Positions 52,507-61,426 of a stretch of 64,000 nucleotides of DNA are shown here, piece by piece; position 1 is the stretch's first letter; every line of letters starts with the position of its first letter. The stretch spans positions 1 to 64,000 of the forward strand of contig CANRTU010000002.1 of NCBI GenBank assembly GCA_947642745.1, read 5' to 3'. Below the pieces are notes generated by a model, which was not told where the DNA came from, ran no database searches, and worked only from the letters and a program-made list of their open reading frames with translations. The translations under genes and the position numbers were made by a program. This DNA comes from an uncultured Eubacterium sp. Its GTDB lineage: Bacteria; Bacillota; Clostridia; Lachnospirales; Lachnospiraceae.

Positions 52507-52696
52507 TCTTTCGTATCTTTGGAATTCTTCTGCCGTATATTCAGAATTCTTTTGTATATTTCCGAAAGGCTTTCTCTTCTGGTACTATCTTTTGTATTTC
52601 CAGAAAGACCTTATCTTCCGTAGGTTCAGGATCTTATCTTTTGTTAAAATCCGGCCGCTATCTTTCGTGTTTATAAATCTTATCTTTTGTAGAAGT
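52507..52696 (-). repeat. Array of about eight ACRRAAGATA motifs downstream of 6S RNA
   Basis: On the minus strand, degenerate copies of ACAAAAGATAAG appear about every 20-26 bp, with one or two wider gaps: ACAAAAGATAAG, ACGAAAGATAGC, ACAAAAGATAAG, ACGGAAGATAAG, ACAAAAGATAGT, ACAAAAGAATTC, ACGGCAGAAGAA, ACGAAAGAAAAA. Several lie in the loop of a small stem: GGAT/ATCC, ACCT/AGGT, TTCTGG/CCAGAA, GAATTCTG/CAGAAGAATTC. The first copy starts at the 3' end of the 6S RNA and the last runs into the terminator. Confidence 0.7.
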
Positions 52697-52883
52697 ATCC
52701 CCAGAGTGCCGGTCCCACAATTTTGACGCCTAGCAAAGCCAGGTTGGGTAACCTCAATGGAGCTTCTGTCTTCCACTGCGTAATGATGGCCTGACATCGA
52801 CCCCAAGATATTGGAATCCCGTGAAAAAAAATGTAGGTTCAAAATAGCAGGTTATCGAACACCCCAGGTTAATACTCTTGCTA
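52690..52883 (-). ncRNA. ssrS: 6S RNA (SsrS)
   Basis: The minus-strand transcript expected from the promoter at 52.9 kb can form the long closing stem of 6S RNA: CTGGGGTGTT near the 5' end pairs over ten positions (with G-U pairs) with GGCACTCTGG near the 3' end, and AGAGTAT pairs with ATACTTCT outside it. The pieces CTGGGGTGTTCG and CGGCACTCTGGGGAT resemble E. coli 6S CTGAGATGTTCG and CGGCATCTCGGAGAT. Inside, ATTTTGA pairs with TCAAAAT, and the small hairpin CCTGGCTTTGCTAGG lies on the 3' side of the central bubble region. Length of about 190 nt fits. 6S RNA binds housekeeping RNA polymerase by mimicking an open promoter. The ORF 52585-52842 of the track is a false gene over it. Ends are estimated. 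Confidence 0.75.
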
Positions 52884-58375: not shown

Positions 58376-59050
58376 TTACCCTTCTGCCCTTAATACGTAT
58401 CCCACCCCTCTGATTGTCTGAATCATTTTAAATGTAAACGGATCGTCTATTTTTTTTCTCAGATAACGGATATAGACGTCTATAACATTGGAATAGCTGT
58501 CATGATCCAGATCCCATATGTTAGCTTCAATCTGTTCCCTTGATACGACGATGTTCTGATTGCGTATGAGATAAAGCAGAATAGAAAACTCTTTTGGCGA
58601 TAAATAAATCTCCTGTTCTTTGCGTTTTACAATATGCTCATTACAGTCCACCATCAGATCCCCGCAGCGGTAAATATTTTCCCGGACGCCGGCTTTTTTA
58701 CGGGTCATGGCCCTTACCCTCGCAGACAGCTCCTGAAAAACAAATGGTTTAACCATATAATCATCGGCGCCGATATCCAGTCCTTCCACAATATCATCCA
58801 CCCGGCTGCGGGCGGTAAGAAATAAGACCGGCGTCTGTACCCCTCTGCTTCTGGCCTTTTTCAATACTTCAAATCCGTCTGTCCTGGGCAGCATCACATC
58901 CAGGATTACCCCGTCATATTCTTCCATCTGTAAATAATCATAGGCGCTTTCACCATCAAAACAGGTATCCACCAGATACCCTTCCGATTCAAGTTCCCTG
59001 GTAATGATACGGTTTAAGTCCTTTTCATCTTCTACGACCAGTATCTTCAT
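58376..59050 (-). CDS. OmpR-family response regulator
   Basis: This 224-residue protein has a receiver domain (MKILVVEDEKDLNRII; phosphorylated Asp in GVILDVMLPRTDGFEVL; Lys in GADDYMVKPF) and a winged-helix DNA-binding domain (LSPKEFSILLYLIRNQNIVVSREQI, VDVYIRYLRKKID). ATG 59050 follows AAAAGGAGAC; the 52-residue extension in the track is rejected. It forms a two-component system with the kinase immediately downstream. Target genes are not evident; the glucosidase and pckA are its neighbours. Confidence 0.95.
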   Translation of the reverse strand: MKILVVEDEKDLNRIITRELESEGYLVDTCFDGESAYDYLQMEEYDGVILDVMLPRTDGFEVLKKARSRGVQTPVLFLTARSRVDDIVEGLDIGADDYMVKPFVFQELSARVRAMTRKKAGVRENIYRCGDLMVDCNEHIVKRKEQEIYLSPKEFSILLYLIRNQNIVVSREQIEANIWDLDHDSYSNVIDVYIRYLRKKIDDPFTFKMIQTIRGVGYVLRAEG

Positions 59051-59184: not shown

Positions 59185-59227
59185 CAGTATGCATAAAATC
59201 CCGCAAAGCGGGATTTTATGCATACTG
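59185..59227. other. Perfect 20-bp hairpin
   Basis: CAGTATGCATAAAATCCCGC and its exact reverse complement flank AAA (59205-59207). It is the leftmost hairpin of the repeat cluster between the response regulator and pckA genes. Confidence 0.8.
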
Positions 59228-59451
59228 CGGGCTGCCTCTGGCAGCATTTTCCTCTCCGACGCAGGGCGATCCTCCCGGAGGGTTTTTATCTTACAGGACG
59301 CTCTTTCCTATAAGATTAAAAAGTATCCGGCACAGCCGGATACTCCGCCTGCTGCGGGCTGCCTCTGGCAGCATTTTCCTCTCCGACGCAGGGCGATCCT
59401 CCCGGAAGGTTTTTAATCTTACAGGACGCTCTTTCCTATAAGATTAAAAAG
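59225..59451 (-). repeat. Two direct copies of the dispersed repeat, each beside a terminator hairpin
   Basis: Copies at 59225-59323 and 59352-59451 are about 98 percent identical over 99 bp, with one substitution and one indel seen. On the minus strand each begins right after a different hairpin with TTTTTAATCTTATAGGAAAG, and runs through GGATCGCC and a GCTGCCAGAGGCAGC stem. Related copies are at 48.6 kb and, in part, at 10.9 kb. Confidence 0.9.
59319..59343 (-). terminator. Second terminator in series downstream of pckA
   Basis: Stem AGTATCCGGC/GCCGGATACT with T-run on the minus strand. It is identical except in the loop to the terminator at 10.92 kb. Confidence 0.75.
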
Positions 59452-59479
59452 GACAACGGCCATATATCCGCCGTTGTCC
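59446..59479 (-). terminator. First terminator downstream of pckA
   Basis: GGACAACGGC/GCCGTTGTCC stem (59451-59460 and 59470-59479) followed on the minus strand by TTTTTAATC. It lies about 160 bp past the pckA stop. Confidence 0.8.
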
Positions 59480-59636: not shown

Positions 59637-61343
59637 TTAGAGCGTATTTGCTTCATCCACTACTTTCTGGATGGCAGCTGCCGCGTCTGCCGGAAGCTTG
59701 TTATAGCCGCCTTCTTTTGTATCCAGTTCTTTGACATTGTTCAGACGGTCAGTCATACGTGCTTTCATCTGAGCCACATAGTCTTTGTCATTTAAATCCG
59801 GAACGAAGCCTTCCCATTCCAGAATCTCAATGTCTTCAAACGGTCCCCACTGTTTGAAATCCGCTTTCTTCTCTACAATAGCTTCCAGAATGCCAAGCGT
59901 ATCTTTTGGCTGTACTTTTTTGCCCATAAAATCACCGGTATTGATAATGTAGCAGTCTACGTTCTTTTCTTCTACCAGTTTTTTAAATTTCTCATAGTCA
60001 TTCACCAGCGGATAAGTACGGAACGGATTTGCGTACGGCTCAATTACCAGTGCGTTCGGATCCACGCCAGGAGCAAGCCTTTCCGCTGTGGAACGTTTTG
60101 TAGCAAGTGTGGCTCCCATTACAGATGCCAGGGAAGCGCCTTTTAATTTTACAACCGGCGGCAGCGTCTGGTCTTTCATGATCCAGAAAATAGCGTTTAC
60201 CGGACTGTCGATTTTGTCTACCCTGTTTGGAGACCATAATTTGGATTTGATGGCACGTCCGTTTCCGTTACGGATATCTTCCGTTACAAGCACAATCTTT
60301 CCTTCATCATCCAGTGTAGCGGAACAGTTCTGGGCTGTTAATAAGAACTTGTTGTCCTCACAGGCAGTCGGATAATCTGCGGTCTTGTCAAAATAAGTCG
60401 GCTCCAGGGCAATGGAGGCACATGTGTCTGTATTAATAATAAACGCATCGTCGTGCAGCACTTTGATAGAAGGATATTTATCATTGTGTTTTGCGTGGGT
60501 CAGTGTGGATTTGCCGGATCCGGATAAACCAAATACAGCTGCCACATATTTGGAACCATCGTCCAGTGTATATTCTTTCTGTCCGCCATGGCAGGACGCA
60601 TAACCATTACGGTTGGCAATTGCCCAGGCCAGGGTCAGGGTACCTTTTTTGTGTTCGCCAAAATATCTCATACCAAGGATAGCCGCACAGTTTGTCTCTG
60701 TATTAAAATAGCACAGGCATTTACCGTCGCATACATCTGTCTGGTCTGTACCCTTCCACTGCGGATCAGAGAAAATATATACATCCGGCTCGCTGCCATT
60801 TCCTACCGGCAGGGACTGGCCGTACATCTTTGTATACGTATCGTTCATATACTGGAAGTTCAGCATCCAGTTATACAGAATGTTTTCTTCTCCCTGTGGA
60901 ATCAGCAGATGCGCCTTCACCATAAATTCCGGATCAAGTCCGATATATACCTGGGCATGGTACATCTTTTTCCAGCGTGAATCATAAACCGCATCCATCA
61001 GAATCTTGTCCAGTTTCGCACAATCCGTACCCTCTTTACCTGTAATTCTTCTGGCAGCAGCATAACGTCCTGTAATTGAACCGTCATTAAATAATAATAC
61101 TTTTGCTTCCGGCTCCAGTCCGATTTCTTCCGCTTTATAGACCGGCATATCTGTGACAACTGTTCCCGGAGAATTTTTAGCCAGTTCATAAGCTTCCCGC
61201 AGCGTGTTTACTTTTACCACATTATTGCCATAGAAAGGCGCTTCTATGATCGCACGGGTATTGGTAACCGGAGACGCCGCTTTTGGAAACCCGACTTTGT
61301 CTGGTCCGATCTCAGTTCTTGCATAAAATGCTTTTGTTGACAT
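59637..61343 (-). CDS. pckA: Phosphoenolpyruvate carboxykinase (ATP)
   Basis: This 568-residue enzyme has the kinase-1a P-loop GLSGSGKSTLTHAKHND, the metal and oxaloacetate segment VLHDDAFIINTDTC, and the adenine-side region FRTYPLVNDY of ATP-type PEPCK. It interconverts oxaloacetate and PEP; in anaerobes it often runs toward oxaloacetate to save ATP from PEP. It is longer than the E. coli enzyme (540) and has an N-terminus typical of clostridial forms. ATG 61343 follows GAAGGAGGAAC. A consensus promoter precedes it, and two terminators in series follow. Confidence 0.95.
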   Translation of the reverse strand: MSTKAFYARTEIGPDKVGFPKAASPVTNTRAIIEAPFYGNNVVKVNTLREAYELAKNSPGTVVTDMPVYKAEEIGLEPEAKVLLFNDGSITGRYAAARRITGKEGTDCAKLDKILMDAVYDSRWKKMYHAQVYIGLDPEFMVKAHLLIPQGEENILYNWMLNFQYMNDTYTKMYGQSLPVGNGSEPDVYIFSDPQWKGTDQTDVCDGKCLCYFNTETNCAAILGMRYFGEHKKGTLTLAWAIANRNGYASCHGGQKEYTLDDGSKYVAAVFGLSGSGKSTLTHAKHNDKYPSIKVLHDDAFIINTDTCASIALEPTYFDKTADYPTACEDNKFLLTAQNCSATLDDEGKIVLVTEDIRNGNGRAIKSKLWSPNRVDKIDSPVNAIFWIMKDQTLPPVVKLKGASLASVMGATLATKRSTAERLAPGVDPNALVIEPYANPFRTYPLVNDYEKFKKLVEEKNVDCYIINTGDFMGKKVQPKDTLGILEAIVEKKADFKQWGPFEDIEILEWEGFVPDLNDKDYVAQMKARMTDRLNNVKELDTKEGGYNKLPADAAAAIQKVVDEANTL

Positions 61344-61426
61344 GAATAGTTCCTCCTTCAAAAAAATAAATACTATTTTAATAAATTTCCATTATAAATC
61401 ATGATGGAAAATGAGTAACTAAAAAT

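Follow-up and report, generated by a model that had tools for sequence, protein, structure and literature searches.

The DNA analyzed here, a stretch of 64,000 nucleotides that we call the window, raises the question of how a block of three perfect hairpins alternating with two nearly identical repeats came to lie downstream of pckA. A preliminary description of this block had offered two possible origins: recent duplication of a 99-bp repeat around terminators, or insertion of the repeat targeted to terminators. On the minus strand, the order of parts is the pckA stop codon (59637), hairpin A, TTTTTAATC and a repeat, hairpin B, TTTTTAATC and a repeat, and hairpin C, beyond which lies the promoter side of a gene for a response regulator. 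All of these parts were found where that description had placed them, and TTTTTAATC does directly follow both hairpin A and hairpin B. The gene upstream of the array, pckA (59637..61361, minus strand, from the ORF list), encodes an ATP-type PEP carboxykinase. The response-regulator gene (58376..59050, minus strand, from the ORF list with its ATG start codon read by eye) is the next gene downstream and has the same direction.

The repeat copies (approximately 59225-59323 and 59352-59450) share 98% identity over 99 bp by BLAST, which bears out their reported near identity, and a search within the window recovered the repeat in these two copies only. For the 43-nt and 33-nt repeat blocks, zero matches are expected in shuffled sequences. 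Folding of the 301-nt block gave a z score of about -12 relative to shuffles for either strand, and seven terminator-like sites were identified at the block compared to 0.7 expected.

Hairpin A (59451..59479, minus strand), composed of GGACAACGGC and GCCGTTGTCC separated by 9 nt and followed by TTTTTAATC, is the terminator-like hairpin of pckA. It has a 10-bp stem, a 9-nt loop, and an abutting-hairpin energy of -18.4 kcal/mol. Directly behind it lies unit 1, the upstream copy (59318..59450, minus strand, including the shared T-runs at both ends), which was identified by BLAST and by a profile match of 141 bits spanning positions 1-132 of 132. Unit 1 opens with a hairpin termed hp1 (59410..59450, minus strand; arms TTTTTAATCTTATAGGA and TCCTGTAAGATTAAAAA), recognized by inverted-repeat search and folding, whose left arm includes the T-run of hairpin A. 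Next comes a structured core (59344..59409, minus strand), delimited by covariation in an alignment and consisting of GGAGGATCGC, a P2 stem, the inner hairpin GCTGCC-AGA-GGCAGC, and GGCGGAG. Hairpin B (59323..59343, minus strand), which reads GTATCCGGC-TGT-GCCGGATAC and is conserved in other units, is unit 1's own intrinsic terminator, with a 9-bp stem, a 3-nt loop, and a T-run at 59318-59322.

Unit 2, the downstream copy (59228..59322, minus strand; profile match of 114.6 bits), retains hp1 (59283..59322, minus strand), a long hairpin whose left arm is the T-run, as well as the core, and its 3' end is rearranged. Its normal terminator is replaced by hairpin C (59185..59227, minus strand), which was located by inverted-repeat search and compared with other units by eye. 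This hairpin has a perfect 20-bp stem and a 3-nt loop, with no T-run after it on the minus strand. The 99-bp repeat is therefore real, but the full unit is about 127 bp long and includes a terminator hairpin of its own. Likewise, the claim that each repeat sits right behind a working terminator holds with respect to abutment, but hairpin B is the end of the upstream unit rather than an independent target, and both hairpins are working terminators only presumptively.

The window's genome (G000; 4.1 Mb in 111 contigs, 88% complete) holds many further copies of the unit, as the preliminary description had anticipated. BLAST located at least 62 places, and a full-unit profile gave at least 89 matches when fragments and some opposite-strand self-matches are counted. 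Comparison of copies side by side gave the unit length of about 127 bp and the layout T6-ATCTTATAGGAAAGAGCGTCCTATAAGATAAAA-CCCTCCGGGAGGATCGCCATGCGGCGGAAGGGAAAATGCTGCCAGAGGCAGCCCGCCGCAGGCGGA-GTATCCGGCnnnGCCGGATAC-T6A. Read on the minus strand of the window, the unit consists of hp1, which starts in the preceding T-run, the covarying structured core, and its own terminator GTATCCGGC-nnn-GCCGGATAC-T6, and dozens of copies carry this hairpin B-type 3' terminator. Unit boundaries are sharp, with information falling to background just outside the left T-run and just after TTTTTTA on the right. The ends read T6ATCTTATAGG on the left and GCCGGATACT6A on the right and are not inverted copies of each other, so terminal inverted repeats are absent. 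Both junctions read T5-6 and then A, but the T-run itself belongs to the target as well, and a target duplication is not clearly visible. Contigs of this genome often break within units, as expected for dispersed repeats.

Copies also vary in ways that bear on the makeup of the unit. In this genome, the 3-nt terminator loops are AAA (16), TTT (13), GAA (10), TGT (7), and others, with some copies counted twice, whereas the stem is constant; reverse-complement pairs among these loops could reflect loop inversion. An older subfamily occurs beside the young one (L263, the third unit of L004, and the upstream unit of L037, all in G000), with the core TATATCGCTAAAGCGATCC and the terminator GAATCCTGC-AAA-GCAGGATTC. 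Chimeras of the old and young subfamilies mix the hp1, core, or terminator of either, and from these the unit looks modular. Extra G+C-rich hairpins (e.g., GGGGTCTGCCCC...GGGGGCAC) are inserted in the core at a single site immediately ahead of the P2 stem in L034 and L041 (contigs C33 and C32 of G000), L148, and L047.

With few exceptions, the copies in this genome sit right behind another terminator. Units that come first in an array start at a T-run behind a hairpin that is different at every site, whereas an inner unit takes as its start the T-run that closes the terminator of the unit before it. Both situations are present in the window, where unit 1 lies behind the terminator-like hairpin of pckA and unit 2 lies behind the terminator of unit 1. 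Among array-first units that do not follow a terminator of the unit's own type, 24 of 35 abut a hairpin of -10 kcal/mol or lower; the figure for control T-runs (at least five T residues, from the same loci, true terminators among them) is 31 of 150 (Fisher P = 1.2e-7). Several array-first units are not preceded by a good hairpin. For other genomes and subfamilies, a stable hairpin is abutted in 54 of 63 cases. By a rough reading of ORFs, 27 of 37 arrays share their strand with the gene upstream. The expected tie between copies and terminators thus takes the form of a precise abutment to hairpin and T-run at unrelated loci of this and other genomes. This insertion-like placement, immediately behind intrinsic terminators and in fixed orientation, resembles the target choice of group IIC introns.

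A bias toward terminators might also be produced by random insertion followed by purifying selection, such that the only surviving copies are those behind terminators, where no transcript is disturbed. Enrichment downstream of genes is a general feature of small repeats, and this has been argued for the pneumococcal repeat SPRITE from its placement between convergent genes (PMC3049150). However, selection against harm would permit any spot in a gene-free interval, whereas the units start at the T-run itself, have a sharp left boundary, and take up that same position when nested behind terminators of their own. We consider this explanation unlikely.

The relatedness of neighboring units provides information on how the arrays grew. 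Seven of 25 neighbor pairs resemble local tandem duplications. In the other 18 the neighbors are not mutual best matches, and for those 18 pairs an origin of arrays by tandem duplication alone was rejected. These 18 pairs often join a fresh unit to a decayed one. The median identity is 0.84 for neighboring units versus 0.86 for all pairs, and the two units of the window, although 92% alike over the compared length, are not a mutual best pair. Because the closest relative of a unit is usually not its neighbor, the sequences suggest that arrays arose mainly by repeated insertion, through independent arrivals beside existing units. Between the two origins first proposed, insertion targeted to terminators therefore fits better, given also that same-genus species lack the unit, and duplication around a terminator fits less well.

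The unit is almost absent from 12 genomes of the same genus. Nevertheless, of 200 genomes sampled from its family (Lachnospiraceae), 59 contain matches to a covariance model of the core, and about a third of the sampled genera in that family hold related versions. Carrier genomes have from 1 to more than 23 copies, and each copy-rich genome has a distinct subfamily. In a class-wide sample of 291 genomes, matches were found only in two, both of the same family. Named carriers are a plasmid of Roseburia sp. 831b and a metagenome-assembled contig labeled Lachnospiraceae bacterium. On the Roseburia plasmid, the annotation of a "hypothetical protein" (WP_075681193.1) spans a unit (L235:2078-2425, corresponding to NZ_CP135163.1:13-360) and probably reflects a spurious ORF. 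Rfam contains no family that matches the unit above its gathering threshold and gave no relevant match at an E-value of 5; the only Rfam match in the whole window is a 6S RNA (RF00013, 64.8 bits) at 52694-52873 on the minus strand. The literature searched holds no description of this repeat family.

Units are also present in about 33 human stool scaffolds labeled "Bacteriophage sp." (including MT835472, MT835487, and MT835478). Their units are numerous, belong to one subfamily, and follow many different terminators, a pattern suggesting that these scaffolds are fragments of Lachnospiraceae chromosomes. They may be bacterial rather than phage, also because IMG/VR lacks the unit: a 19-mer from the core gave one unrelated match there and a 22-mer gave none. 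A phage origin of the unit was rejected because these core sequences are essentially absent from that collection.

We looked for empty sites of the unit. In pckA orthologs of the same genus (81-84% DNA identity), the sequence downstream differs, the terminators are unrelated, and divergence is too great for a base-level comparison. Flanks of the copies in the phage-labeled records had no near-identical counterpart in the phage collection, and the genus of another genome (G047) offered for this comparison only one further genome, which is incomplete. With no empty site found, insertion (transposition) of the unit is what we infer from its sequence and placement. The lineage-specific copy sets and the spread within one bacterial family count in favor of a mobile repeat.

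The fold of the core is conserved. Three helices, namely P2, the inner hairpin, and the terminator, have support in an alignment of 31 cores that come from several genomes. Overall, 96.1% of cells in this alignment are paired, 10 pairs are changed on both sides, and 68 cells show such two-sided changes compared to 24.7 in shuffles; 0 of 500 shuffles were equal to the alignment, and slid controls were near zero. An alternative pairing, CCGCC-GCA-GGCGG, was rejected since it has no covariation of its own. The arms of hp1 differ strongly among loci of one genome, yet they complement each other. In genome G015, arms form 12.67 of 14 pairs with their own partner versus 7.69 with other arms (0 of 2,000 permutations), a contrast that is somewhat inflated because only hairpins of at least 9 pairs were used and some palindromes were counted from both strands. 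In some copies from this genome, the right arm is even complementary to the stem end of the host terminator, as in L093, where ATCCC-T6 faces A5-GGGAT. We read the matching of hp1 arms as either template-switch correction and extension of an inverted repeat or selection for pairing, and the data fit both. The 20-bp perfect stem that stands in for the terminator of unit 2 (hairpin C) fits the same process.

The strong covariation of the core and the complementarity of locus-specific hp1 arms in G015 are also what would be expected if the unit were not selfish but a functional RNA family of 3' ends that was duplicated and that selection has retained, serving as a regulator or as a reinforcing or bidirectional terminator. 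A weak terminator-like site also lies on the opposite strand of the pckA block. However, arm complementarity could also be generated by template-switch correction of imperfect palindromes, and the copies occur patchily from one related species to the next, decay within arrays, and follow unrelated genes. We judge this explanation to be improbable.

Instead, the unit is probably a nonautonomous, structured mobile repeat, similar to MITEs or REP sequences, that inserts at the T-tract of a terminator and rebuilds a terminator in doing so. In the proposed process, which is the simplest account, a copy would enter at the T-tract directly behind the terminator hairpin in one fixed orientation, with the insertion machinery recognizing the hairpin and T-tract in the manner of class C group II introns (PMC4424553). 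The incoming copy would bring hp1, whose right-arm A-run could pair with the T-tract, followed by the folded core and then the unit's own terminator hairpin and T6. The host gene would keep its own terminator and gain a second one further on. Because the unit ends in a terminator of its own, it would recreate its target, and this fresh site could receive the next copy to yield tandem arrays with a period near 127 bp. The effect on transcription may be a second termination event or protection of the 3' end, and is probably near neutral to the host.

How such a repeat would move can be considered in light of the candidates available. The copy-rich genomes have no candidate transposase in common, and neither Y1 transposases nor reverse transcriptases are consistently associated with the unit. 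Elements mobilized by Y1 enzymes have end hairpins, lack terminal inverted repeats and target duplications, and are strand specific. Mobilization of the unit by an IS200/IS605-type (Y1) transposase, as with REP or PATE, would fit its geometry, in which hairpins form both ends and the 3' end is fixed a few nucleotides past the last stem. Furthermore, in two other genomes of the family, G015 (L100) and G017 (L099), IS200 copies appear by eye to follow terminator-like hairpins and their T-runs immediately; that IS200 group may prefer such targets. However, the end hairpins of the G015 IS200 are unlike the unit ends, and no Pfam Y1_Tnp match was found in four copy-rich genomes, namely G117 and the 98-99% complete G209, G203, and G095. 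The window's genome has only a broken Y1 fragment, whereas the unit-free genomes G052 and G053 have 17 and 6 Y1 matches. A role for Y1 enzymes is accordingly doubtful in our estimation. At one locus of the window's genome (L035:1-60, contig C107), an apparent IS200 right end (CCACCGGCTAAGCCGGTGGTTCTGACT) is joined to the hp1 of a unit, and IS200 seems to have landed inside the unit.

Another candidate is the reverse transcriptase of a group IIC intron, acting in trans to carry the unit RNA to terminators in a SINE-like manner. The window's genome contains a group II intron (L121:605-2894, contig C44) with Rfam matches to D1D4-3 and domain V and a 472-aa reverse transcriptase without an obvious endonuclease domain. 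This intron starts (GTGCGCCC) directly behind the T-run of a unit's terminator, with a decayed unit about 130 bp past it, and its position indicates that it took the unit's terminator as target. Group IIC introns use the same class of target, intrinsic terminators (Robart 2007, as cited in PMC4424553). However, the window's units have no group II domains by Rfam, whereas the true intron at L121 does match. Likewise, the reverse transcriptases of copy-rich genomes are of mixed kinds, with no obvious intron-type enzyme in G209 and G117, only a fragment in G095, and none in G201 (76% complete). We give this route a very slim chance.

A related and also speculative idea, to which we assign a low probability, is that the unit is a terminator-homing SINE-like element whose transcript ends at its own terminator and whose hp1 A-run arm pairs with the T-tract, and sometimes with the host stem end, to pick the site. 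If so, termination itself would supply both the end of the mobile RNA and its target.

Regardless of the enzyme involved, this would be a repeat family that is widespread in gut Lachnospiraceae, has apparently escaped description, and has gene ends as its safe harbors. If insertion is confirmed, it would to our knowledge be the second known class of element with terminator-specific targeting, after group IIC introns. The reading of 3' ends, double terminators, and assembly breaks changes in carrier genomes, where many contigs end in units.

Among known systems, small structured intergenic repeats come closest, namely REP/BIME, BOX, RUP, and above all SPRITE. REP/BIME and PATE are Y1-mobilized elements, and BOX and RUP are pneumococcal repeats. 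Like REP/BIME and PATE, the unit is palindromic and noncoding, clusters behind genes, and has end hairpins without terminal inverted repeats, but no guide tetranucleotide was identified for it and several copy-rich genomes have no partner Y1 gene. BOX and RUP resemble it in being structured, modular, intergenic, about 100 bp long, and high in copy number, whereas they have terminal inverted repeats and target duplications and are not anchored to terminators. Unlike MITEs derived from DDE transposons, the unit lacks terminal inverted repeats at its two ends. Group IIC introns insert directly after intrinsic terminator hairpins in fixed orientation (PMC4424553), but these are ribozymes of about 2 kb with a reverse transcriptase, and the unit is 127 bp, noncoding, and without intron domains. 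SPRITE is a small dispersed pneumococcal repeat with a terminator-like hairpin and T tract, intergenic near gene 3' ends, for which an empty site could not be found either (PMC3049150). It is AT-rich, with a single 18-bp duplex, AAAA/TTTT ends, and about 30 copies, and was reported to act like a terminator rather than to lie behind one (PMC3049150). The unit likewise holds a hairpin and T tract resembling a Rho-independent terminator, but by description of structure it differs in being G+C-rich, having at least three conserved helices, abutting an existing terminator, nesting in tandem, and occurring in many genera. Its strict placement behind a terminator, nesting, and multi-helix core set this family apart from the small intergenic repeats.
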